Shown here: positions 13,905 to 39,127 of the stretch, in pieces
Layout: each line of letters begins with the position of its first letter
Position numbering within the stretch: position 1 is the stretch's first letter
Origin: an uncultured Lachnospiraceae bacterium
GTDB lineage: Bacteria > Bacillota_A > Clostridia > Lachnospirales > Lachnospiraceae
Direction of reading: 5' to 3'
DNA: 39,127 nt
Assembly: GCA_902801585.1 (NCBI GenBank)
Contig: CADCIU010000027.1
Span: forward strand, 1 to 39,127
Program-made: the position numbers and the translations under genes
Notes under the pieces: model-generated
Told to the model about the DNA's origin: nothing
Database searches by the model: none
Seen by the model: only the letters and a program-made list of their open reading frames with translations

Positions 13905-13948
13905 AGTTGCAAATTATTGTTTTGATTCGTGCAACTGTGTTGTATAAT
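13905..13948 (+). promoter_or_regulatory. Promoter of the mecA-like gene with a flanking inverted repeat
   Basis: A consensus -10 TATAAT lies at 13943-13948; the -35 is weak (TTGATT 13922-13927, 15-nt spacer, or TTTGAT with 16). The -35 is bracketed by a 7-bp inverted repeat, AGTTGCA (13905-13911) and TGCAACT (13930-13936), with an 18-nt gap. This could be an activator or repressor site. Confidence 0.5.
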
Positions 13949-13966
13949 GATAAATCAGAGGAAATC

Positions 13967-14011
13967 ATGCTTGCGTCATGCCCGTGGACAGGGCAGGAGA
14001 CAAGCGCCTGA
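13967..14011 (+). CDS. Possible leader peptide (14 aa) upstream of the mecA-like gene
   Basis: ATG at 13967 is preceded by AGAGGAAATC, a fair Shine-Dalgarno at normal spacing, and lies about 12 nt after the predicted transcription start. The peptide reads MLASCPWTGQETSA. The same bases can form a hairpin, with GCTTG/CAAGC as outer stem and TGCCC/GGGCA as inner stem, so translation and folding would compete. This is the pattern of an attenuation or translation-control leader. I know no described family for it. The coding call rests on the ribosome site, the position and the overlap with structure, not on conservation. Confidence 0.35.
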   Translation: MLASCPWTGQETSA

Positions 14012-14016
14012 GGAAG

Positions 14017-14052
14017 ATGCGCCCGGCGTGTCTCTATGGAGGAATACATTGA
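14017..14052 (+). CDS. Possible second leader peptide (11 aa) overlapping the mecA-like start
   Basis: ATG at 14017 opens an 11-codon frame (MRPACLYGGIH). Its TGA (14050-14052) overlaps the TTG start of the next gene (14049-14051), a layout typical of translational coupling. Its Shine-Dalgarno (GAGG) is only 3 nt from the ATG, which argues against efficient initiation. It may be chance. Confidence 0.2.
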   Translation: MRPACLYGGIH

Positions 14053-14705
14053 AGATCAGAAAGATCAATGATACGACAGTCAACTGCATTATCACGCAGG
14101 AAGATATGAAAAAGCACGGTATTCATATTGACGATTTCTTTGACCGCAAGAAAAATGCCGTGGAATTTATCAGGGGAATCATTCTCAAAGCGGTAAATTC
14201 AGCGGAACTGAACATCAAAAGCAGCTATACGGCCATGAAGATCTCAGTCCTTCCGGACAAGTCTGTGAGTCTTACGATCTCACAGGATCCGATCGAATCC
14301 GGCAGGATCAGGGAGACCAAAGAAGAGGCCATGCAAAGTGCAGGGATCATGACCGGCAGCCGTAAAAAAGCAGGTGCCGAAAGTTCGGATCCGGGAGTTG
14401 CAGCGGCCGGCATCTATATTTACGAGTTCGGCTCGATCCGGGAAATGCGCGCATGCTGCCGCATGCTCACGGGATGTGCCGGAATCGGGAGTTCGGTATA
14501 TTTTGTAAAAGAGACAGGACTCTACTACCTGATCCTCGAGAGAGAAGCTGAGACGGACGATCAGTATGACAGTTTTGTGCTCAAGGTGAGCGAGTTCGGA
14601 AAAATGGTCACCTGCGACGACAGGACATTTGCGTACCTTAAAGAACACAGCGAATGCATACTCAGAAGCCGCGCTGTACAGCAGATTTATGAGCTGTATA
14701 AGTGA
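14049..14705 (+). CDS. MecA-like adaptor protein (ClpC substrate adaptor family)
   Basis: 218 residues from a TTG start at 14049, chosen because GGAGGA (14038-14043) sits 5 nt upstream. The frame stays open back to 13929, but those codons do not resemble the family. N-terminal domain (1-80): 'KIRKINDTTVNCIITQEDMKKHGIHIDDFF', the substrate-binding part of MecA. A low-complexity linker (about 85-125) follows. The C-terminal domain (about 128-218) has 'YEFGSIREMRACCRMLTG', 'YFVKETGLYYLILER', 'LKVSEFGKMV' and a final aromatic helix, as in the ClpC-binding part. MecA delivers substrates to ClpCP. In clostridia the targets are unknown. It is followed closely by the pseudouridine synthase gene. Confidence 0.82.
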   Translation: MKIRKINDTTVNCIITQEDMKKHGIHIDDFFDRKKNAVEFIRGIILKAVNSAELNIKSSYTAMKISVLPDKSVSLTISQDPIESGRIRETKEEAMQSAGIMTGSRKKAGAESSDPGVAAAGIYIYEFGSIREMRACCRMLTGCAGIGSSVYFVKETGLYYLILEREAETDDQYDSFVLKVSEFGKMVTCDDRTFAYLKEHSECILRSRAVQQIYELYK

Positions 14706-15525: not shown

Positions 15526-17583
15526 ATGTTGGAGCCGATGGATAATCTCAATAACACTATAGAGGATACGGCAGGCGCAGACTCCGCGAAAGAGCGGATC
15601 AAGGAACTGACGCTGCTGCTCAACCGAGCCAATGAGAGCTATTACAATCATGATACGGAGATCATGAGCAATTTTGAGTACGACAGATTGTACGATGAGC
15701 TTTCCGCGCTCGAAAAGAGCACCGGCATCGTAATGGCCGGATCTCCGACCATCCATGTCGGCTACGCGGCAGCGCAGGAGCTGCCCAAAGAACGGCATGA
15801 AACCCCTATGCTCTCTTTGGATAAGACAAAAGACCGGGACGCGCTGGCACAGTGGCTCTCCGGGCATGAGGGCCTTCTGTCTCTGAAATTGGACGGTCTG
15901 ACGGTCGTACTCACTTATGAGGGAGGCAGACTGGTCAAGGCAGTGACAAGAGGAAACGGTGAAGTCGGTGAAGTGATCACAGACAACGCGAAGGTCTTTG
16001 TCAACCTTCCCGTTCAGATCCCTTGTACGGATCCCATCCTCATAAGGGGAGAAGCTGTGATCCGCTATTCGGACTTTGCCGCTATCAACGAAGAACTGGA
16101 GGCGGAGGCGCTCACTTCGGGCGATCTGTCTTTTGCCAGATATAAGAATCCGAGAAACCTGTGCAGCGGCAGTGTCAGACAGCTGAACAACGAGGTCACG
16201 GCGAAGCGCAGAGTCCGCTTCTATGCATTCTCCCTTGTGCAGGCCGGCGGAAGAGATTTCGGCAATTCCCGTGAGAATCAGCTTTTGTTTCTGAGGGAAC
16301 AGGGATTTGAGATCGCCGAATATGTTCGGGTAACCCCGGAAAACGTCGCAGATGCCGTCGGCCGGTTCGAAAAAGAGATTGCACATCAGGATCTTCCATC
16401 CGACGGACTTGTGCTGACGCTGGATGACATTGCATACGGGGAATCCCTTGGGACGACCGCGAAGTTCCCGAGAAACAGCATTGCTTTTAAGTGGGCGGAC
16501 GAGATCAGTGAGACAACGCTCACGGATGTCGAGTGGAGCGCGAGCAGGACCGGACTGATCAATCCGGTCGCGGTCTTTGAACCGGTAGAACTGGAAGGGA
16601 CGACCGTAAAGAGAGCTTCCGTGCACAATGTCAGTATTGTCCGCGAGCTGAAACTGGGAATCGGTGACAGGATCACGGTCTATAAAGCCAATATGATCAT
16701 TCCTCAGATCGCCGAGAACCTGACAGGTTCGGGGAACCTCGAGATCCCCTCAAAATGTCCTGTCTGCGGTCATGATACGCTAATTCGCAGGGACAATGAT
16801 ACGGAGGTGCTGATCTGCACAAATCCGGAATGCACAGCCAAAAAGATCAAGGCTTTTTCTCTCTTTGTGAGCCGGAGCGCCATGAATATCGACGGCCTTT
16901 CCGAGATGACGCTGGAGAAACTGATCGCTGCAGGACTGATCCATAGTTTTGCCGATATTTATCATCTTTCAGAGCACCGGGAGACCATCGAGCAAATGGA
17001 TGGATTCGGGGCAAGATCCTGTGACAAGCTGTTCGAAGCCATCGAGAGATCTAAAGAGACGACCCCGGCCAGAGTCCTGTGTGCGGTCGGAATACCCGGG
17101 ATCGGAACTTCGGGTGCCAGAATCCTGTGCACACATTTTCACGATGATCTGGACAGGATCCGAAATGCGGACAGAGAGGAGCTGGCCGGTGTTGACGGGA
17201 TCGGCCCTGTGCTTGCGGACAATATTCGAAACTTTTTCGATGATCCGGCCGCTGCCCGGTCGCTGGATGCACTGGTCCGCGAGCTTCACATCGCCAAAGA
17301 AGAGGGCAGTGAAAAGCCGCAGCTTCTCGCAGGAAAGACGTTTGTGATCACAGGCAAGGTATATCATTTTGAGAACCGGGATGCACTAAAATCCATGATC
17401 ACAGCGCTTGGCGGAAAAGCGGCCGGAAGCGTCTCTTCCAAGACGGATTATCTGATCAACAACGACGTGACATCGAATTCATCAAAGAACAAAAAGGCCA
17501 GAGAATTGGGAATTCCCATCCTCTCCGAAGAGGAATTCCTGAAAATGACCGGTGCGGCTGCAGAGCCGGGAAAGGAATACTAA
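15526..17583 (+). CDS. ligA: NAD-dependent DNA ligase, divergent clostridial form
   Basis: 685 residues. It joins nicks during replication and repair using NAD+. Domain Ia is present ('YYNHDTEIMSNFEYDRLYDEL'). The adenylation motif is Lys121-Leu-Asp-Gly ('LKLDGLTVVLTYEGG'). The OB fold follows, then a four-Cys zinc finger ('CPVCGHD...CTNPEC'), helix-hairpin-helix repeats ('GIPGIGTSGARIL', 'VDGIGPVLADNI') and a C-terminal BRCT domain (about 595-675, 'GKTFVITGKV', 'GGKAAGSVSSKTDYLI'). Oddity: the usual TRGDGxxGEDxT reads 'TRGNGEVGEVIT', so two acidic positions are changed. The start at 15526 follows GGGGGGAAG; ATG 15538 is an alternative. Its TAA overlaps the ATG of metA (TAATG). Confidence 0.95.
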   Translation: MLEPMDNLNNTIEDTAGADSAKERIKELTLLLNRANESYYNHDTEIMSNFEYDRLYDELSALEKSTGIVMAGSPTIHVGYAAAQELPKERHETPMLSLDKTKDRDALAQWLSGHEGLLSLKLDGLTVVLTYEGGRLVKAVTRGNGEVGEVITDNAKVFVNLPVQIPCTDPILIRGEAVIRYSDFAAINEELEAEALTSGDLSFARYKNPRNLCSGSVRQLNNEVTAKRRVRFYAFSLVQAGGRDFGNSRENQLLFLREQGFEIAEYVRVTPENVADAVGRFEKEIAHQDLPSDGLVLTLDDIAYGESLGTTAKFPRNSIAFKWADEISETTLTDVEWSASRTGLINPVAVFEPVELEGTTVKRASVHNVSIVRELKLGIGDRITVYKANMIIPQIAENLTGSGNLEIPSKCPVCGHDTLIRRDNDTEVLICTNPECTAKKIKAFSLFVSRSAMNIDGLSEMTLEKLIAAGLIHSFADIYHLSEHRETIEQMDGFGARSCDKLFEAIERSKETTPARVLCAVGIPGIGTSGARILCTHFHDDLDRIRNADREELAGVDGIGPVLADNIRNFFDDPAAARSLDALVRELHIAKEEGSEKPQLLAGKTFVITGKVYHFENRDALKSMITALGGKAAGSVSSKTDYLINNDVTSNSSKNKKARELGIPILSEEEFLKMTGAAAEPGKEY

Positions 17584-18500
17584 TGCCAATCAAAATACAG
17601 AATGACCTGCCGGTCAAAGAGATACTGGAAAACGAGAACCTTTTCATTGTGGATGAGAACAGGGCGATCCATCAGGACATACGTCCTCTTCAGCTGTGTA
17701 TCCTCAACCTGATGCCCAAAAAGGAAGAGACGGAGCTGCAGCTCCTCAGGATGCTCTCCAACACACCTCTTCAGATCGACATCACTTTCATGAAGATGAG
17801 TTCTCACAGATCACTCAATACGCCCCTCTCTCATCTCAACAAGTTCTACTATACTTTCCAGGAGCTGAGGGATCAGCGCTTCGACGGCCTGATCATCACC
17901 GGCGCACCGGTAGAGAAAATGGAGTATGAAGAGGTGGATTACTGGCCTGAACTCTGTGAGGTATTTGCCTGGAGCAAGACCAACGTCTTCAGTACTTTTC
18001 ATATCTGCTGGGGCGCACAGGCAGCCTTGTATTATCATTACGGACTCAAAAAGAGGCTTCTGCCAAAGAAGCTTTTCGGTGTCTACTCACACAAGGTCCG
18101 CCACAGAAAAGAGCCTCTTGTCCGGGGATTTGACGACTACTTCCTCATTCCGCACAGCAGGTACACGGAAGTCTCTGCCAGATCCATTCATGCCTGCAAA
18201 GATCTCCGTATTCTTGCAGAGTCTGAGGAGGCAGGCGTTCTCCTGTGCATGTCGACGGACGGCAGAAAGATCTTTATCATGGGACATGCGGAATATGACC
18301 GCAACACGCTCCGCGACGAGTACACAAGAGATGCCAGAAAAGGGCTGGGGACAGCGATCCCCGTCAATTATTTCCCGAACGATGATCCTGAAGGAAAACC
18401 GCTTTTGGAGTGGCGCGCACACAGCTATCTTCTTTACAGCAATTGGCTCAACTATTATGTCTACCAGTTGACGCCTTATGATCTCAATGAGATCCACTGA
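17583..18500 (+). CDS. metA: Homoserine O-acetyltransferase, MetA type
   Basis: 305 residues, full length. It acylates homoserine in the first committed step of methionine synthesis. The sequence starts 'MPIKIQNDLPVKEILENENLFIV', the conserved MetA N-terminus. The catalytic Cys is Cys142 in 'HICWGAQAALYYHYG', and His235/Glu237 in 'MGHAEYD' complete the active site. Residue 111 is Glu in 'TGAPVEKMEYEEVDYW'; published work on MetA (Zubieta and colleagues) links Glu111 to acetyl-CoA use and Gly111 to succinyl-CoA use. An acetyltransferase is therefore predicted despite the common label homoserine O-succinyltransferase. It is translationally coupled to ligA. The next gene starts within 30 nt. Confidence 0.95.
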   Translation: MPIKIQNDLPVKEILENENLFIVDENRAIHQDIRPLQLCILNLMPKKEETELQLLRMLSNTPLQIDITFMKMSSHRSLNTPLSHLNKFYYTFQELRDQRFDGLIITGAPVEKMEYEEVDYWPELCEVFAWSKTNVFSTFHICWGAQAALYYHYGLKKRLLPKKLFGVYSHKVRHRKEPLVRGFDDYFLIPHSRYTEVSARSIHACKDLRILAESEEAGVLLCMSTDGRKIFIMGHAEYDRNTLRDEYTRDARKGLGTAIPVNYFPNDDPEGKPLLEWRAHSYLLYSNWLNYYVYQLTPYDLNEIH

Positions 18501-18526: not shown

Positions 18527-21142
18527 ATGGACGATCTGCATTTGAAAAATACGGAGAAACGGTGTTTCGCAGTTCTCTCCGGAACGGCAAAAAACAGTGA
18601 AGAGTTTATGGATTCTCCGACCTTTTTCCTGAGCAGGGCGCCGATGAGGGACAGGCTTTGGCTTCTGATCTTTCTTGAGGCGCTCATAGCCATTGAAAAC
18701 GGGTCGGAGGAATACTTCGAGACAGATTACATCATGGCGGTCAACGAATACCTTGTCCGCCGGTCTGATCTGTCTGTTCGTATGCTCAATACATGGATCT
18801 CGGGGCAGAATTTCAGATCCATGCAGGAAGTGACGGATTTTTTCAACGACCGATACCGCGTGACAGGCCAGTTCTTTAAGGACAATCAGCTGCTGTGCCG
18901 CAGGGAGTGGCAGGAATCCGCCTCTTTGTACAGAGCTTTCTGGATCTCCGCTGTCAGGGCACAGGAGGAGATACCGGAAGAGACAGCGGTTTACGATGTC
19001 AATCTGGGAGACCGGAAATTCCGCGAGAACCCGGTCGGTTACCTGCTCTCGGTCAGAGAGGAGGAACGGCTTCGCTATATTGTTCTTTTGGCAGGCACGA
19101 TCTACGAGTATGAGCATGCGGCAGGTACCACAGTCGCAGTGCGGTCCGAAAAGACCTGCAGAGAATTTGTCAGAGACTTCGGGAACCTGCTCAATAAATA
19201 TATCAAATATCCGGAAGATCCCGAGATACAGACACTGACGCTGATGGTCCATATGGATATGGACGGCAGGGATTTCAGGGATGACGTCAAGCGCAGAGCC
19301 TATTTCAACGAGTATCTGAGACGGGCCGCCTACAAGTGGCACACCAATCAGAGTGGCTGCCGCAAAGCAGTGACCGACAAATGGGAGGAATACGGTGTTT
19401 ATTTCCGCCGACTGCCCGAGGACGGACATGAACCGATCGTACCGGATCTTTATCTGGACGAGGCCATTCTCAATATCCCGCAGTTTCAGACAGACCCCTT
19501 GAGTTTCCTGCGCAGTCAGGTCAAAAAAGAGCAGAGCATCCATTTTCTGACTATGCTGCACGCATCCTCTGCCACTCCGGAAAATGCCGCGCTGTCGGCG
19601 TTTCTGATCACAAGATGGCTTAAGGAACCCGACGAGGAATCTGCAGTTGAACTGGATTCCTTCTTCGGATGGACGGACTGCACAGATGAGGAGCGCACAT
19701 ATCTGATCGAGCAGGATATCTGGGATCTGGTCTCTGTCTGGAGATATAACCTAAAAAAGTGCAGGGAACGAGTCAAGACCGGCTGGGCTGCATACGAAGA
19801 ATCCTACGGCCATATGATCGCCGAGAATGTCATTCCCGATGATCTGAAGCGATTCGAAGATATTTTCGAAGATTCCGGATTTATTGACGACCCCATCAGT
19901 GTCATTGCGGACATGGACCGCGGCGAACAGGAAAGATTCGTCGACTTCTGCGCAGCGCTCAACGGCAGGGATGAACATGACGCAGCGGTACTCTCAGAGG
20001 CAGTTCTGGCCTGGCTGGAGAATCCCGCCAACGAAGGGGCCCGTCAGCTTATGCACAGGATCGGCGGATGGTGGGCTGCAGGCGTCTCGGAAGAGATCTC
20101 CTCGATCCGTGACTTTTTTGAAAAGGCAGCCGTATCGTGGAAGTTCAATTACGGCGGGCTGCGAAGCAATGCGGTGCAAAACTACAAATCCTATTTTTCC
20201 AGGCTGACGGACAGGCAGGGCGAGAGCAGGGAAGAGGGATTCGAGCAGGAATTCAGGTCCTTCTACAGGATCATGGAAAACGAAGAATTCATCGAGCATC
20301 CCTCAAGATACCTAAGGCATATGAATCAGCTGCAGTGCGTTCGATTTCTGCTGTATCTGGCAGCAGTGTCGGGGATGGATCCCGAGAATGCGCTGCGGTT
20401 CGCAGTCGTCTTTAAGAACGTGATCTTCTATCCCAATGACGGACTGCGGAAAAGAGTAGATATGATCCTGGGAAGGATCAGCCAGGACGACAGGCAAAGA
20501 AACGGCTATATCGACGAACTGCTGTCGGGGTCTGTCAGGGAGTACGGCAATGATCTTGAGAAGCGCGCCGCAGCTGAAGAGAACTGGGCTTCTTACGCGC
20601 GAATATTCGAGGATCACCAGGAAAAGCAGAAGAAGAATCACTGGGAGCTCACGGACCAGAATGTCAGGAAGCTGTTCCGCTACTGCGCAACGGGAAAAGA
20701 GAGCGCGAGCACTGTCAGGCCTGAAGATCCGGGCGCCGTAGTCGTCAGGATCCTGGGAGATGAAAAACCCGTGAAATTCCGATTCCGGGATGTGGCCCTG
20801 TGCGCCGATCATATATACAGTGAGCAGACGGGAGAGATCCTCCGGTTTATGCTCGGCCAGCTCGAAATGTTCCATCTGAGAGGTCAGAATAAGAATCAGC
20901 GGACGTATCCGGTCACCTATCCGGTGGAGATGGCAAGCACCCGCCGCAACGGATACGGGGAGAAAATACAGTGGACGGATTCGGAGACCGTGATCTTCCA
21001 GCTGCTCTATCTGGCAGTCGGAGCCGAACTGATCCCTCCCCTTCATCAGTCGGTCAATGAGAGGACCGGTGAAATGAAGCTGATCATCAAACTTGACGAG
21101 GGCGGAGCTGATAAGATCGAGACCATCCTCAAAGGCAGCTGA
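18527..21142 (+). CDS. Large unrecognised protein with five internal repeats
   Basis: 871 residues from ATG 18527, preferred over ATG 18515 because GGGGAA sits just before it. No signal peptide or clear membrane span, so probably cytosolic and mostly alpha-helical. I recognise no known domain. Numbering from the first ATG (18515), a module recurs five times at about residues 31-142, 169-298, 324-432, 456-562 and 592-698. Each opens with F-x-x-x-P-x-x-aromatic/aliphatic-L/I (FMDSPTFFL, FRENPVGYL, FQTDPLSFL, FIDDPISVI, FIEHPSRYL). A hydrophobic helix follows, and each closes with an aromatic pattern near W-x-x-Y-x-x-x-F (for example 'WQESASLYRAF', 'WEEYGVYF', 'WAAYEESY', 'WASYARIF'). A different C-terminal domain spans about 735-875. 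The gene follows metA by 26 nt with no promoter, so it is likely cotranscribed with ligA-metA. Confidence 0.9.
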   Translation: MDDLHLKNTEKRCFAVLSGTAKNSEEFMDSPTFFLSRAPMRDRLWLLIFLEALIAIENGSEEYFETDYIMAVNEYLVRRSDLSVRMLNTWISGQNFRSMQEVTDFFNDRYRVTGQFFKDNQLLCRREWQESASLYRAFWISAVRAQEEIPEETAVYDVNLGDRKFRENPVGYLLSVREEERLRYIVLLAGTIYEYEHAAGTTVAVRSEKTCREFVRDFGNLLNKYIKYPEDPEIQTLTLMVHMDMDGRDFRDDVKRRAYFNEYLRRAAYKWHTNQSGCRKAVTDKWEEYGVYFRRLPEDGHEPIVPDLYLDEAILNIPQFQTDPLSFLRSQVKKEQSIHFLTMLHASSATPENAALSAFLITRWLKEPDEESAVELDSFFGWTDCTDEERTYLIEQDIWDLVSVWRYNLKKCRERVKTGWAAYEESYGHMIAENVIPDDLKRFEDIFEDSGFIDDPISVIADMDRGEQERFVDFCAALNGRDEHDAAVLSEAVLAWLENPANEGARQLMHRIGGWWAAGVSEEISSIRDFFEKAAVSWKFNYGGLRSNAVQNYKSYFSRLTDRQGESREEGFEQEFRSFYRIMENEEFIEHPSRYLRHMNQLQCVRFLLYLAAVSGMDPENALRFAVVFKNVIFYPNDGLRKRVDMILGRISQDDRQRNGYIDELLSGSVREYGNDLEKRAAAEENWASYARIFEDHQEKQKKNHWELTDQNVRKLFRYCATGKESASTVRPEDPGAVVVRILGDEKPVKFRFRDVALCADHIYSEQTGEILRFMLGQLEMFHLRGQNKNQRTYPVTYPVEMASTRRNGYGEKIQWTDSETVIFQLLYLAVGAELIPPLHQSVNERTGEMKLIIKLDEGGADKIETILKGS

Positions 21143-21205: not shown

Positions 21206-21234
21206 TTTACACATTTTGATTACGAAAATATAAT
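21206..21234 (+). promoter_or_regulatory. SigA-type promoter of the zinc-ribbon protein gene
   Basis: -35 TTTACA (21206-21211), 17-nt spacer, consensus -10 TATAAT (21229-21234). It is one of the best promoters in the window, about 65 nt before the start codon. Confidence 0.8.
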
Positions 21235-21298: not shown

Positions 21299-22114
21299 AT
21301 GTCTGGTAAAGATCCGGAGTTGTCCCGCCTCGGCGAGGCGCTCAGCAGTGCGAGAACTGCTTATGCATCGGCAAAGAAGAATACAGATGAGACCAAGTCG
21401 CGTTTGAACGAGACAGGAAGCAGGATTCAGACATTTAATACGAAGATCGCGGAACTCAAGAAGAGCATCGATGCCGAGTACAATGCGATGAGGAGCGAGC
21501 GTGCTAACGGGGACAGGAATGCAGCGGATGAACACCGCTCAGCCGCTCAGGCCATGCAGGATAAGCTGACAGAGATCTATGATCTCAAGAAGGCCTGCTT
21601 TGCCGAATTGGATGAAGCGCGCGCTGCTTTTAATAAAGCGCTGGATTCACAGAAGACACTCCGTGATGCCGTGCAGCATGCGTGGGACAGTTTCAATGAG
21701 AGACTCGAATTTCTCAAGTCCGAAAATGCGAAAGAACAGGCGAAGTGGAAAGAAAAGCCGTGCAGAATCTGCGGCGTGCCGATCCGCTACAATGTGGAGT
21801 GGAAACATATTCCGAACCTGTGCAAGGACTGCTTCGAAAAAGATAAAGAGAACTGGGAAGACAGAACCTGTGCGAAATGCGGCAGGAATTTCCGTATCAA
21901 CAAGAGCTGGGAGCACATTCCCACGATCTGTCCGGAATGCCGCAAGGTCGTAAAAGCCGAGAAAGCCGCCCGGGAGGCGGAAAAGGCTGCTAAACTGGAA
22001 GCGCAGAGGGAAGAAGCCGAAATGCTCGAGAAAAGCGCAAGACTTGAGAGAGAGGAAGCTGCCTCAGCTCTCGTAGATGTTGCCAACGAGGAAATGCAGG
22101 ATTTAGAGAACTGA
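21299..22114 (+). CDS. Coiled-coil protein with two tandem zinc ribbons, function unknown
   Basis: 271 residues. The start is fixed by ACAGGAGGTTTTGAAACATG. Residues 1-150 form a long charged heptad-rich helix (coiled coil, rich in Ala, Glu, Lys). Two nearly identical four-Cys units follow, 36 residues apart: Cys155-Cys158...Cys175-Cys178 and Cys191-Cys194...Cys211-Cys214, both C-x2-C-x16-C-x2-C. They share the core N-x-x-W-[KE]-H-I-P-x-[LI]-C. The C-terminal 55 residues are again a highly charged Lys/Glu/Ala helix. The zinc units point to nucleic-acid or protein binding, and the helices to oligomerisation; there is no enzymatic motif. It has its own strong promoter. The hydrolase gene downstream starts within about 50 nt, so the two are probably cotranscribed. 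Confidence 0.88.
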   Translation: MSGKDPELSRLGEALSSARTAYASAKKNTDETKSRLNETGSRIQTFNTKIAELKKSIDAEYNAMRSERANGDRNAADEHRSAAQAMQDKLTEIYDLKKACFAELDEARAAFNKALDSQKTLRDAVQHAWDSFNERLEFLKSENAKEQAKWKEKPCRICGVPIRYNVEWKHIPNLCKDCFEKDKENWEDRTCAKCGRNFRINKSWEHIPTICPECRKVVKAEKAAREAEKAAKLEAQREEAEMLEKSARLEREEAASALVDVANEEMQDLEN

Positions 22115-23239: not shown

Positions 23240-24670
23240 TTGTTCATGGGTGGTTTTTTTGGTGCTGCACTTCGCGAAGATGTCGTATTTGATCTGTTCT
23301 ACGGAACGGATTACCATTCTCATCTGGGCACAAGAAGAGCGGGAATGGCGGTATATGATCCCGTGAAAGGATTTGACCGCGCGATCCACAATATAGAGAG
23401 TTCCAATTTCAGGCCGAAATTTGAAAAAGACATCATAAAGATGAAAGGAAATCTCGGGATCGGATGTATAAGTGATTTCGAACCGCAGCCGCTGATCGTT
23501 CGCTCTCATCACGGTACTTATGCGATCACGACGGTAGGAAAGATCAATAATATCCACGAGCTGACAGACAAACTCTTTAGCGGGACCCACTCCCATTTTC
23601 TGGAGATGAGCGGAGGCGATATCAATCCGACCGAGATGGTAGCTTCTCTGATCAACCAGAAGAGCTCTATTGTTGAAGGAATACTCTATGCGCAGGAGAT
23701 GATCAAAGGTTCAATGACTTTTCTGATCATGACTCCCAAGGGGATCTACGCATCAAGAGACCGCTGGGGAAGGACTCCGGCCGTGATCGGCAAAAAAGAT
23801 ACTGGATATTGTGTTTGTTTCGAGAGCTTTTCTTATCTCAATCTCGGATATGAGCCCGAGAAGGAACTTGGGCCGGGAGAGGTCGTGTTCATCACACCTG
23901 ACGGATATGAAGTGATCATCCCTGCCCGCAGCGAGATGCGCATCTGTTCCTTCCTCTGGATCTACTACGGATTTCCGGCATCTTCCTACGAAGGCGTCAA
24001 CGTAGAAGATATGCGCTACGGATGCGGACGAAAACTGGCGGAACGTGACATGCGCAGAGGCAACATTCATCCTGACTGCGTGGCCGGCGTCCCGGACTCC
24101 GGTATTGCACACGCCATCGGTTATGCCAATACATCCGGTGTGCCTTACTCCAGGCCTTTCGTCAAATACACACCCACATGGCCCAGATCATTTATGCCCA
24201 CACATCAGAGCAAAAGGGATCTGATCGCCAAGATGAAACTGATCCCGATCCATAAGCTGATCGGCGGGAAACGCCTGCTCCTGATCGATGATTCGATCGT
24301 TCGCGGCACGCAGCTGAGGGAGACGACGGAATACCTCTACAACAGCGGTGCTGCTGAAGTCCACATCCGTCCCGCATGCCCTCCGCTGGTCTTCGGATGC
24401 AAATACCTCAATTTCTCTAGGTCAGATTCGGAGAAAGAACTGATCACAAGAAGAAAGATGGAACTTTTGGAGGGGACTGCATCCTTTACAGAGGCAACAC
24501 TCGAGAAATACACGGATCCGGATTCCGACCAGTATCACGCAATGCTGGAAGAGATCCGGAAGGAACTCAATTTCACATCTCTCCATTATCATCGTCTCGA
24601 TGATATGATCGATTCGATCGACATCGCTCCGTGCAATCTGTGCACATACTGCTGGAACGGAAGAGAGTAA
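23240..24670 (+). CDS. PurF-like amidophosphoribosyltransferase homologue lacking the catalytic cysteine
   Basis: 476 residues, start set by TTAAGGAGGCTTGTTCATG. PurF makes 5-phosphoribosylamine from PRPP with ammonia released from glutamine by an N-terminal Ntn domain whose catalytic residue is Cys1. Here the N-terminus reads 'MGGFFGAAL', with Gly where Cys is expected from 'CGxFG'. The oxyanion Asn-Gly is also changed ('TTVGKINN' for HNGNL-type sequence). The phosphoribosyltransferase domain is intact ('LLLIDDSIVRGTQLRETTEYL', residues 344-364). The probable [4Fe-4S] ligands of the B. subtilis-type enzyme are kept: Cys234 ('RICSFLWIYYGFP'), Cys385 ('PPLVFGCKY'), Cys466 and Cys469 ('CTYCWNG'). 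The best reading is an ammonia-dependent or non-canonical PurF paralogue. It stands alone, without other pur genes, and is followed by a terminator. Confidence 0.88.
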   Translation: MFMGGFFGAALREDVVFDLFYGTDYHSHLGTRRAGMAVYDPVKGFDRAIHNIESSNFRPKFEKDIIKMKGNLGIGCISDFEPQPLIVRSHHGTYAITTVGKINNIHELTDKLFSGTHSHFLEMSGGDINPTEMVASLINQKSSIVEGILYAQEMIKGSMTFLIMTPKGIYASRDRWGRTPAVIGKKDTGYCVCFESFSYLNLGYEPEKELGPGEVVFITPDGYEVIIPARSEMRICSFLWIYYGFPASSYEGVNVEDMRYGCGRKLAERDMRRGNIHPDCVAGVPDSGIAHAIGYANTSGVPYSRPFVKYTPTWPRSFMPTHQSKRDLIAKMKLIPIHKLIGGKRLLLIDDSIVRGTQLRETTEYLYNSGAAEVHIRPACPPLVFGCKYLNFSRSDSEKELITRRKMELLEGTASFTEATLEKYTDPDSDQYHAMLEEIRKELNFTSLHYHRLDDMIDSIDIAPCNLCTYCWNGRE

Positions 24671-35915: not shown

Positions 35916-36001
35916 TTCCAATGCATGCCGCCTCCGGTATTTTACCTAAATCTGCAGCATATTAAGGTTTAATTAAGTGGACGGGATCATGCTGTTTAGA
36001 G

Positions 36002-36034
36002 TACAATAATTAATAGCAGTGTTATGATACTGCT
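36002..36034 (+). promoter_or_regulatory. -10 element and palindrome upstream of the sugar kinase
   Basis: A -10-like TACAAT lies at 36002-36007 with only a poor -35. Eight bases later an inverted repeat AGCAGT (36015-36020) / ACTGCT (36029-36034) with an 8-nt gap covers the likely transcription start, the position of a sugar-responsive repressor site. The regulator is not encoded here. Confidence 0.4.
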
Positions 36035-36080
36035 GGGGAAATAACACGGTATAGCCGGCAGGGACCAGAAAGGTGGTAAT

Positions 36081-37067
36081 ATGGGTATTGATAAGAAGAT
36101 TGATGTGACAGCACTCGGTGAACTTCTCATCGATTTTACACAAAACGGAGTCAGTGAACAGGGTAACAATCTCTTTGAGGCGAATCCGGGAGGCGCTCCC
36201 TGCAATGTCCTTGCCATGCTTAACAAAGCAGGAAAAAAGACCGCGTTTATCGGAAAAGTCGGCAATGATATTTTCGGAAGGCTCCTGAAAGCCAAAACAA
36301 CGGAGCAGGGAATCGATATGAGCGGATTGGAGATGGACGAAGAGATCCATACGACACTTGCGTTCGTAGAGAAACTTCCCAACGGCGACAGAGATTTCTC
36401 CTTCTATCGCAACCCCGGTGCGGATGTCATGCTGACCGCTCAGGAAGTGGAGGCGCACAGCGATCTGATCGAGAATGCTAAGATCTTCCACCTCGGCACA
36501 CTCTCCATGACACATGATACCGTCGAGCAGGCGACCAGGAAAGCGCTTGAGATCGCCAAGAATGCGGGCTGCCTGATCTCCTTCGATCCCAATCTGCGTC
36601 CTCCGCTTTGGAGCAGCGAAGAGAAAGCAAAAGAGAAGATCGCATTCGGCCTGTCCCAGTGCGACATTCTCAAGATCTCTGACAATGAGATCACCTTTAT
36701 GACCGGAGAGGAAGATCTGGACAAAGGTATCCATAAGATCATTGACGAATATCATATCCCGCTTGTATTTGCCACTTTCGGCCCTGACGGATCCAAGGCA
36801 TATTGCGGCGGCAAGGAAGTCTATGTGGAAGGATTTATCAATCCCAACACGATCGAGACCACAGGTGCCGGAGATACTTTCTGTGCGAGCGCTCTCTATC
36901 ATGTTCTCAAATACGGCATTGAAGGCCTGAGCGACGAAGCTAATCTGAAAGAACTCCTTACCTTTGCCAATGCCGCAGCTTCTCTTGTGACGACTAAGAA
37001 GGGCGCGCTGTGCGTGATGCCCACAGTCGACGAGGTTAAAGCGTATATCAAAGAATCCGGAAGGTGA
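36081..37067 (+). CDS. PfkB-family carbohydrate kinase, probable fructokinase
   Basis: 328 residues. It phosphorylates a sugar with ATP; the overall pattern is that of ScrK-type fructokinases. N-terminal 'VTALGELLIDFTQNG' and 'ANPGGAPCNVLAMLNKAGKKTAFIGKVGNDIFG' (PfkB signature 1) contact the sugar. The C-terminal signature 2 is 'IETTGAGDTFCASALYHVL', whose Asp is the catalytic base, and 'NAAASLVTTKKGALCVMPT' closes the nucleotide site. AAAGGTGGTAATATG sets the start. No sugar transporter or sucrose hydrolase is adjacent, so the substrate is inferred from family only. A terminator follows. Confidence 0.9.
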   Translation: MGIDKKIDVTALGELLIDFTQNGVSEQGNNLFEANPGGAPCNVLAMLNKAGKKTAFIGKVGNDIFGRLLKAKTTEQGIDMSGLEMDEEIHTTLAFVEKLPNGDRDFSFYRNPGADVMLTAQEVEAHSDLIENAKIFHLGTLSMTHDTVEQATRKALEIAKNAGCLISFDPNLRPPLWSSEEKAKEKIAFGLSQCDILKISDNEITFMTGEEDLDKGIHKIIDEYHIPLVFATFGPDGSKAYCGGKEVYVEGFINPNTIETTGAGDTFCASALYHVLKYGIEGLSDEANLKELLTFANAAASLVTTKKGALCVMPTVDEVKAYIKESGR

Positions 37068-37082
37068 TTCCTCTGTGATATG

Positions 37083-37120
37083 AACGGGCTTTGCGATTTT
37101 GCTTGCAAAGCCCGTTTTTT
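37083..37120 (+). terminator. Rho-independent terminator of the sugar kinase
   Basis: ACGGGCTTTGC (37084-37094) pairs with GCAAAGCCCGT (37105-37115) around a 10-nt loop, followed by a T-tract to 37120. The 3' arm overlaps the -35 of the tRNA promoter. Confidence 0.93.
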
Positions 37121-37130
37121 CTGTTATAAT
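37103..37130 (+). promoter_or_regulatory. Promoter of tRNA-Gly
   Basis: -35 TTGCAA (37103-37108), 16-nt spacer, consensus -10 TATAAT (37125-37130). The tRNA begins 15 nt after the -10. The -35 lies inside the 3' arm of the preceding terminator. Confidence 0.65.
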
Positions 37131-37145
37131 ATAATTCGTTAACAC

Positions 37146-37216
37146 GCAGGTATAGTACATCGGTAGTATGCCAGCTTCCCAAGCTGGAGAGACGGGTTCG
37201 ATTCCCGCTACCTGCT
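37146..37216 (+). tRNA. tRNA-Gly, anticodon CCC
   Basis: A 71-nt cloverleaf: acceptor stem GCAGGTA (37146-37152) with TACCTGC (37209-37215) and discriminator T; D arm around GTAC...GTAT; anticodon stem CCAGC/GCTGG around the loop TTCCCAA, giving anticodon CCC (37178-37180), which reads GGG Gly codons. The T arm is TTCGATT with a stem that has one mismatch (A37192-C37208). The CCA end is not encoded. Confidence 0.93.
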
Positions 37217-37223
37217 CGCAAAG

Positions 37224-37277
37224 AAAATCCCGTAAATATAAGGAAAATGTCGAAAGCCTTATATTTACGGGATTTTT
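37224..37277 (+). terminator. Terminator of tRNA-Gly with a 20-bp perfect stem
   Basis: The bases 37224-37243 and 37257-37276 are exact reverse complements (20 bp; core ATCCCGTAAATATAAGG), with a 13-nt loop and ending in TTTTTC. It starts 8 nt after the tRNA. Confidence 0.93.
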
Positions 37278-37279
37278 CA

Positions 37280-37309
37280 TTGGATTTATCGGGGAAGGAT
37301 GTCTATAAT
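37280..37309 (+). promoter_or_regulatory. Promoter of the phosphoglycerol transferase gene
   Basis: A consensus -10 TATAAT (37304-37309) has TTGGAT (37280-37285, 18-nt spacer) or TGGATT (17-nt spacer) as -35. The start codon is about 84 nt downstream, after the tandem repeat. Confidence 0.6.
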
Positions 37310-37442: not shown

Positions 37443-39127
37443 AACAGTAAATAATACATCCCAAAACAGATCAGGCATCTTTGCAGCATGTGCACTGTTC
37501 ACCGTACTTCTTTTGGCATGGGTGCTTGTATTCCTGGCCGTATGGGTCTTCTCCACCTGGCGCGGCCTCAGGATGGATGAGATCATTTTCCAGCTCCGTG
37601 CCCCGCTTGAAGGTACGGGAGACGGCATTATCATTAAAGGAGTGCTGAGCAGCATTCTTCCCGCATCAGCGCTGACCGGATTGACAGCAGGTATATATAT
37701 CAGGCTGAGGAAAACGCATTATGCAAAGGTCATTCTGCAGACGGCAGGAGCCCTCGCCGCAGTACTCATCGTCTGCACCGCCGCTTATACCTGGAAAAGG
37801 CTGGACCTGGGAAATTACTTTGCAAACCAGATGGATGAATCCGATTTTATCGAGAACAATTATGTGGATCCCGCAAAGGTGAAGATCCGGTTTCCCGAGA
37901 AAAAGAGAAATCTGATCTACATTTATCTGGAGTCCATGGAAATGACATATTCCGACCTGGAATCCGGAGGTTCTTTCCTTTATGACAATATTCCCGAACT
38001 GACGGAGCTGTCGGCATCGGGAGAAGACTTCTCGGGAGACTCCGGACTTTTGAACGGAGGATGTGTGCTCCCCGGTACGACCTTTACAATGGGCGGCATG
38101 TTCGCGCAGTCGGCAGGACTCCCCCTGAAAGTCGACCTGGGAGAAGGATTTACGGATACCAGGGGATCTTTTAATAAGATGAACACGCAGAGTTCTTTCT
38201 TTAAGAAGGTCACAAGCCTTGGCGATATTCTCAGGAAAGAGGGTTATACAAACACGCTGATGCTGGGATCCAACGCTACCTTCGGGGGACGCCGCCTGTA
38301 TTTCACCCAGCACGGAGATTATCAGATCGACGATTACAACTGGGCGATCGAGCAGGGGATCATACCTCCGGACTACTACGTGTTCTGGGGCATGGAGGAC
38401 TCCAAGCTTTTTGCAGCCGCAAAGCAGGAACTCATTAAACTGAGCGAGAGCGGCAAGCCCTTCAATCTGACCATGCTGACCGTGGACACTCACTTTGAGG
38501 ACGGATACTTCTGCGATCAGTGCAGGGAGCAGTATCCCGGGAACAACTATGCCAATGTCATGGCCTGTTCGAGCAGGCAGGTCACGGAATTTGTCCGCTG
38601 GATACAGGAGCAGGACTTTTATGAGAATACGACGATCGTCCTCTGCGGCGACCACACGACCATGGACAGCGATTTCTGCATCAGTGTTCCGGACACTTAC
38701 CGGAGAAAGGTATACACGAGTTTTATCAACGCGGCTGCCGTTCCCGAAGAGCCGGACAGGATCCGGTCCTATTCCACGCTGGATCAGTTTCCGACGACAC
38801 TGGCAGCGCTCGGATGCAGCATTCAGGGCAACCGCCTGGGCCTTGGTACCAATCTGTATTCTTCTGAAGATACGCTGATCGAGAAATACGGATTCGAAGA
38901 GACGACAGCGGAAATGGAGAAGCGGTCCAAGTTTATGATCGACCTGGCGGAGATCGATATCTATGACGAGGACCTTTTGAGAGCGCAGGGAAAGCTTCCG
39001 TCTGCGTCCATCACAATGGACGGTTTCGATGAGGAAGGCGGGATCATGCAGTTCTCGGTCTCTGACATAGAGAACATCCACGAAGATTATGACCGGGTGC
39101 AGCTGCAGATCCGTGACGACACCGGAG
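37393..39127 (+). CDS. OpgB/LTA-synthase-like phosphoglycerol transferase (partial, runs off the right edge)
   Basis: At least 578 residues; no stop codon before the window ends. Three N-terminal membrane segments lie at about 29-56 ('IFAACALFTVLLLAWVLVFL'), 83-103 and 113-133, followed by an extracytoplasmic sulfatase-fold domain. Probable metal/catalytic residues: Glu180 ('YIYLESMEMTY'), the Thr in 'GTTFTMGGMFAQSAGLPL' (about 230-232, the nucleophile position of the family) and Asp420-His421 in 'CGDHTTMDSDF'. The 'T-F-T-x-G-G-M' form and 'SAGLPL' are closer to OpgB/MdoB than to LtaS. Such enzymes transfer phosphoglycerol from phosphatidylglycerol to a surface polymer or glycan. The ATG is preceded by TTTGGAGCTTAT, the last unit of the tandem repeat. 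Confidence 0.9.
   Translation, partial: MEKSQKKNYRSKNTLNKTVNNTSQNRSGIFAACALFTVLLLAWVLVFLAVWVFSTWRGLRMDEIIFQLRAPLEGTGDGIIIKGVLSSILPASALTGLTAGIYIRLRKTHYAKVILQTAGALAAVLIVCTAAYTWKRLDLGNYFANQMDESDFIENNYVDPAKVKIRFPEKKRNLIYIYLESMEMTYSDLESGGSFLYDNIPELTELSASGEDFSGDSGLLNGGCVLPGTTFTMGGMFAQSAGLPLKVDLGEGFTDTRGSFNKMNTQSSFFKKVTSLGDILRKEGYTNTLMLGSNATFGGRRLYFTQHGDYQIDDYNWAIEQGIIPPDYYVFWGMEDSKLFAAAKQELIKLSESGKPFNLTMLTVDTHFEDGYFCDQCREQYPGNNYANVMACSSRQVTEFVRWIQEQDFYENTTIVLCGDHTTMDSDFCISVPDTYRRKVYTSFINAAAVPEEPDRIRSYSTLDQFPTTLAALGCSIQGNRLGLGTNLYSSEDTLIEKYGFEETTAEMEKRSKFMIDLAEIDIYDEDLLRAQGKLPSASITMDGFDEEGGIMQFSVSDIENIHEDYDRVQLQIRDDTG

Follow-up and report, generated by a model that had tools for sequence, protein, structure and literature searches.

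A contig from an uncultured Lachnospiraceae bacterium (CADCIU010000027.1, assembly GCA_902801585.1) was analyzed over positions 1 to 39,127 of its forward strand, and this whole stretch of 39,127 nucleotides is referred to here as the window. An open frame in the window, running from ATG 18515 or ATG 18527 to a stop at 21142, encodes a protein made of five homologous modules and a different closing domain, and this five-module protein represents a new tandem-repeat family, predicted to be helical. The parts of the gene are given below, with residues counted from ATG 18515 and each module accompanied by its score against hidden Markov models (HMMs) from which that module had been left out.

18527..21142, + strand: five-module protein gene, 871 amino acids; the alternative ATG 18515 would add 4 residues
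18599..19012, + strand: module 1 (residues 29–166); left-out HMM 14.7–41.4 bits, 13/13 homologues
19013..19477, + strand: module 2 (residues 167–321); left-out HMM 31.8–69.4 bits, 13/13 homologues
19478..19873, + strand: module 3 (residues 322–453); left-out HMM 30.8–70.2 bits, 13/13 homologues
19874..20281, + strand: module 4 (residues 454–589); left-out HMM 21.6–59.7 bits, 13/13 homologues
20282..20680, + strand: module 5 (residues 590–722); left-out HMM 21.6–63.1 bits, 13/13 homologues
20681..21139, + strand: C-terminal alpha/beta domain (residues 723–875), predicted, weakly winged-helix-like; net charge −2

The modules were initially recognized, in a preliminary description of this DNA, by a start of the form F-x3-P-x2-[FYV]-[LI] and an ending resembling W-x2-Y-x3-F. 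The start motif is found exactly five times, at residues 31, 169, 324, 456, and 592, with spacings of 138, 155, 132, and 136 residues between successive copies. When the protein was shuffled 20,000 times, the motif occurred at most twice and was absent from 19,388 of the shuffled sequences, and its Pro is retained in 36–38 of the 38 rows of a homologue alignment (A3, described below) at each of the five places. The ending is less exact: the strict form is present in only two of the five modules (at 290 and 691), so this part of the pattern holds approximately. Plain self-BLASTP of the protein returned no repeat pair; the self-alignment anticipated for five repeats was obtained by Smith-Waterman comparison, by profile comparison with hhalign, and with the left-out HMMs. 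With 300 shuffles per pair, the Smith-Waterman scores of 7 of the 10 module pairs were equalled or exceeded by no more than one shuffle, and pairs 1-3, 1-4, and 1-5 showed no significance over the shuffles. The hhalign comparison of family profiles gave probabilities of 94.7–98.2% for modules 2–5 among themselves and 92.8% (1-2), 69.6% (1-3), 59.4% (1-5), and 8.0% (1-4) for the pairs involving module 1, such that 9 of the 10 pairs fall at 59.4–98.2%; the maximum of 36 reversed-profile control comparisons was 5.4%. Furthermore, HMMs trained on the other four module positions of 13 homologues recognized all 65 left-out modules (14.7–70.2 bits); among 1,365 shuffled or reversed controls the top score was 7.9 bits. 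Recognition of module 1 by these HMMs settles its membership in the repeat family. Pairwise identity between modules within the protein is only 13–22%, indicating that the internal duplications are old. The protein therefore contains five homologous modules of about 132–155 residues that arose by old internal duplication, a repeat length that refers to comparison at the level of whole modules. A conserved KYPEDPE stretch with invariant residues sits in module 2.

Each module is predicted to be all-helical, with about seven to eight or more helices over ~135 residues in the order two short, several medium, one long (~20 residues), and one or more additional helices; the structure of module 5 was predicted again jointly with the C-terminal domain. 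The expectation of five similar helical units is thus borne out by profile comparison, the left-out HMMs, and structure prediction. The preliminary description went further in proposing an alpha-solenoid or scaffold built from a novel module. Repeats that are predicted to be helical and match no known family are indeed present; units of about seven to eight predicted helices may either stack as a solenoid or sit as separate beads, and the scaffold is a role that we infer, as set out below.

The absence of a recognizable family, also part of the preliminary description, was upheld by searches with the five-module protein against Pfam (no family at E ≤ 1) and NCBIfam (no family at E ≤ 0.1). The anti-phage defence models of PADLOC likewise gave 0 families at E ≤ 1, nothing significant was found in PHROGs (best E 0.14) or among PDB sequences (best E 0.15–0.96), and Foldseek searches of PDB and BFVD gave no significant match, with none at E ≤ 0.001. 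A literature search found nothing on the five-module protein among the entries listed. When the repeats themselves were compared with a family library, 22 modules gave only scattered, chance-level matches in Pfam. Considered together with the matches of nine homologues, these involve one member each, with a best E of 0.0041 (Retrotrans_gag), and were taken as chance; none of the 13 Pfam families matched by any of the 22 modules is a HEAT, ARM, or TPR model.

These results bear on the possibility that the protein belongs to a known alpha-solenoid family (HEAT, ARM, TPR, PCI) but has diverged so far that both sequence and fold searches miss it, a reading that is possible but rather doubtful. The five-module protein resembles HEAT, ARM, and TPR alpha-solenoids in being built from all-helical tandem repeats. 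The unit in those families comprises two or three helices and about 34–50 residues, whereas the unit here, compared at the level of whole modules, spans about 132–155 residues and is predicted to contain at least seven to eight helices. The lack of a Pfam match, the scatter of the homologue and module matches over single members, and the empty Foldseek result also argue against this explanation.

The domain that closes the protein differs from the modules, as had been suspected: hhalign gives it a probability of 0.1–0.4% against each of the five, and its scores against the module HMMs are ≤2.7 bits among the matches listed. It is predicted to be an alpha/beta domain with a winged-helix-like core, a winged helix being built of three helices and a beta wing. 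VIA-align rows for this part of the protein include chains of MarR, MepR, SarA, TFE-alpha, ScpA, and ORC, which we take to be winged-helix proteins. These rows, along with the DNA-enzyme neighbours ligA and, farther off, topA and polA, would fit a regulator or nucleoid-type protein in which the C-terminal domain binds DNA or RNA and the modules sense or oligomerize. Such a role is unlikely. In the reading favoured below, the neutral-to-acidic domain (net charge −2) would make a protein contact, as in PCI winged-helix subdomains, rather than bind DNA. Modules 1, 3, and 4 carry net charges of −10, −12, and −9, respectively. The peak 19-residue hydropathy mean is 1.59, close to the usual membrane limit, and lies within the C-terminal domain; judged from its sequence, the protein is likely soluble.

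A plan of this type has precedents. PCI domains are described as helical repeats closed by a winged-helix domain (PMC9467303). In them, HEAT-like helical hairpins lead into a C-terminal winged helix. The PCI proteins of the proteasome lid, the COP9 signalosome, and eIF3 would resemble the five-module protein in the general plan predicted here, helical repeats with a terminal winged-helix-like domain, but the five-module protein has no match to the PCI sequence model (Pfam, E ≤ 1). In cullin-type repeat proteins, long repeats of many helices end in winged-helix domains. The likeness to the five-module protein is in this plan and by description only, and again there is no Pfam match. It is conceivable, as a long shot, that the module has a new helical fold and that the five-module protein is an independently reached bacterial analogue of the eukaryotic lid, COP9, and cullin scaffolds, with their long helical repeats plus a winged helix, acting in a multi-protein complex specific to its clade of rumen Lachnospiraceae. 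A new module fold would add a type of helical tandem repeat and provide a candidate design scaffold.

Two protein searches, each scoring about 8,000 candidates, yielded at least 61 and at least 63 proteins that largely overlap. At least 65 distinct homologues were matched, and alignment A3, with 38 rows, takes in 37 of them. The other 28 comprise close relatives, fragments, and three sequences (P0060, P0062, and P0066) in which a stretch of the five-module family is followed by unrelated sequence. These three are probable assembly chimaeras and were excluded; two of them carry Pfam domains of other families (PF02518, PF02368). Three of the 61 matches listed in the first search (P0015, P0018, and P0025) carry a source name, which is 'hypothetical protein' of a Lachnospiraceae bacterium; these are full-length homologues of 75% identity that belong to the same family and have no assigned function. 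The 14 named loci are all titled Lachnospiraceae and derive mostly from metagenome-assembled genomes, some of them from roe deer or reindeer samples and some from the RUG series of rumen genomes. An initial check of the 14 genomes gave exactly one match per genome, so that the gene is single-copy in them.

The family is restricted to a small group of Lachnospiraceae within the samples searched. In the family sample of the source genome, 1 of 397 genomes has the five-module protein, and this is the source genome itself. In its genus pool the protein is carried by 17 of 62 genomes, and a module profile likewise finds 17 of 62, with five modules each at one place per genome. Since some genomes of this pool have a LigA only about 35% identical to that of the window, the pool is wider than a usual genus. 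The relatives of distant carrier G414 include 17 carriers among 295 genomes, identical to the 17 of the genus pool. The module profile matched 1 of 398 genomes in the phylum sample (the source genome) and 2 of 392 in the order sample, the first again being the source genome and the second a chance-level 20.5-bit match that contains two stops. Searched by tblastn, neither the phage records (50,697) nor the plasmid records (72,556) gave a match, and a viral contig scan that detects close relatives only gave no pattern match. The gene is under strong purifying selection. The ratio of nonsynonymous to synonymous substitution rates (dN/dS, omega) was usable in 6 of 10 comparisons; omega is 0.05–0.09 in four locus pairs, and dS is saturated (1.7–2.0) in two comparisons against the window. 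This selection implies a real role in bacteria that are important for ruminant digestion. What the family represents is a conserved, single-copy, 871-codon gene of Lachnospiraceae from rumen-type samples, unnamed by the family libraries searched, although by itself it opens no long-standing question.

The true start of the gene is most likely 18527 rather than 18515, giving a product of 871 residues, because most aligned homologues begin at the Met corresponding to 18527 and loci L008, L013, and L014 have a stop two codons upstream of that Met. A GGGG is located 6 nt upstream of ATG 18527, and the 871-residue database protein P0002 is 100% identical to the five-module protein. The features immediately flanking the gene are the following.

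15526..17583, + strand: ligA, NAD-dependent DNA ligase (TIGR00575, 531.5 bits, cut-off 444.45)
17583..18500, + strand: metA, homoserine O-acetyltransferase, directly upstream (NF047918, 481.5 bits, cut-off 460.5)
21206..21234, + strand: promoter-like site 3' of the five-module gene, matching the consensus at 11/12 positions; a consensus match only
21299..22114, + strand: zinc-ribbon-like protein, next gene downstream; its N-terminal part is long, charged, and by eye coiled-coil-like, and it has two CxxC...CxxC motifs

The metA stop ends at 18500, and the gap of 26 bases to Met 18527 leaves little room for a promoter, such that a single transcript of ligA, metA, and the five-module gene is likely. 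The downstream gene may be transcribed separately, as judged from the promoter-like site; promoter-like matches in the scanned region numbered 4, fewer than the shuffle mean of 6.8, and the scan listed no terminator-like site between 21142 and 21299.

The order ligA, metA, five-module gene, zinc-ribbon-like gene is seen in 14/14 main-clade loci, with ligA upstream in all 14 and cut by the contig end in two. Where the contig extends, hydrolase, purF-like, and citrate-synthase genes come next, the hydrolase being undetected in L010. The zinc-ribbon-like protein has no Pfam family above cut-off. Its matches cover residues 1–229 or more, next to the five-module gene, in the 14 main-clade genomes, and elsewhere among the 62 genomes consist of short partial matches to the zinc-ribbon part. 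Its fixed place beside the five-module gene in 14/14 main-clade loci, and the fact that any matches in the remaining 48 of the 62 genomes are partial and confined to the zinc ribbon, could indicate that the two proteins form a two-part system. This seems a slim prospect, as the neighbour is unmatched in the three distant genomes that have the five-module protein, a promoter-like site lies between both genes, and the metabolic neighbours hold their position as well. Furthermore, the co-occurrence may be plain inheritance because it concerns one clade.

The distant relatives also qualify the position of the gene directly behind ligA and metA, which holds for 14/14 main-clade loci but not beyond them. 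In the three distant carriers (G414, G416, and G456) the five-module protein is about 30% identical, and metA does not adjoin the gene in the three relatives of this identity that were examined; in G414 and G416, ligA is on the same contig and strand about 10–12 kb upstream. In loci L025, L026, and L027, the five-module gene is preceded by a same-strand Ser/Thr kinase gene and a gene of 371–381 amino acids with no Pfam family, and in L025 and L026 polysaccharide-type genes, namely glycosyltransferase and ABC-transporter genes, stand before these. This arrangement would suit a cytosolic protein that works in a surface-polysaccharide or Ser/Thr-kinase pathway. That assignment is improbable, since the main clade has metA at that place (14/14 loci) and the 381-residue protein does not track the five-module protein, giving one weak partial match across the 14 genomes of the main clade and having weaker relatives in 5 genomes that lack the five-module protein. 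The kinase genes (L025:6165-7715, L026:8614-10059, L027:4724-6193) are next but one before the five-module gene. A ricin-type lectin-like match is above cut-off in the L025 kinase, just below it in L027, and absent from L026, and in both kinase translations that were read, the sequence after the kinase domain includes a hydrophobic stretch.

Downstream of the five-module gene, a purF-like gene follows in L025, and in L026 it comes after one intervening acetyltransferase gene; the contig of L027 stops short of this position. Because the distant relatives keep the purF-like gene and not metA, the common element is a position upstream of purF. Eleven purF-like regions in non-carrier genomes, some of them short contig pieces, contained no open reading frame (ORF) of ≥80 codons that matched the protein or the module profile. 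A purF tree of 31 rows separates the 18 carriers from the non-carriers as two clades, with two changes needed and some forks open. The five-module gene may have been gained once and then lost, or gained twice. The PurF-like protein of the window (23240-24670) scores 176.5 bits against TIGR01134, for which the cut-off is 350, and a second match at about 31–40% identity is present in many genomes. Its N-terminus reads MGGFFG, without the Cys expected at the PurF glutaminase site.

We infer that the five-module protein is a soluble cytosolic scaffold or adaptor, with a rough probability of 0.5, because no enzyme family was seen and because of the acidity of modules 1, 3, and 4. The protein would be soluble and cytosolic without a catalytic role, and probably co-transcribed with ligA and metA in the window. 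The conserved modules 1 and 2 would hold one partner, and the later modules, which vary more, would serve as spacers or bind a partner that itself varies. In the 45–46% relatives P0054, P0056, and P0058, modules 1–2 are the best conserved (54–63% versus 35–52% for modules 3–5), suggesting that the main contact site lies there. Relatives P0057, P0061, and P0065 show no clean excess conservation of modules 1–2.

Elsewhere in the window, a MecA-domain protein (13929-14705) was detected in 11 loci, where it is conserved at 49–58% as compared with 75–98% for the flanking genes. Two ORFs on the − strand (35973-37280 and 37666-39081; 435 and 471 codons) have no Pfam family at E ≤ 1e-5.
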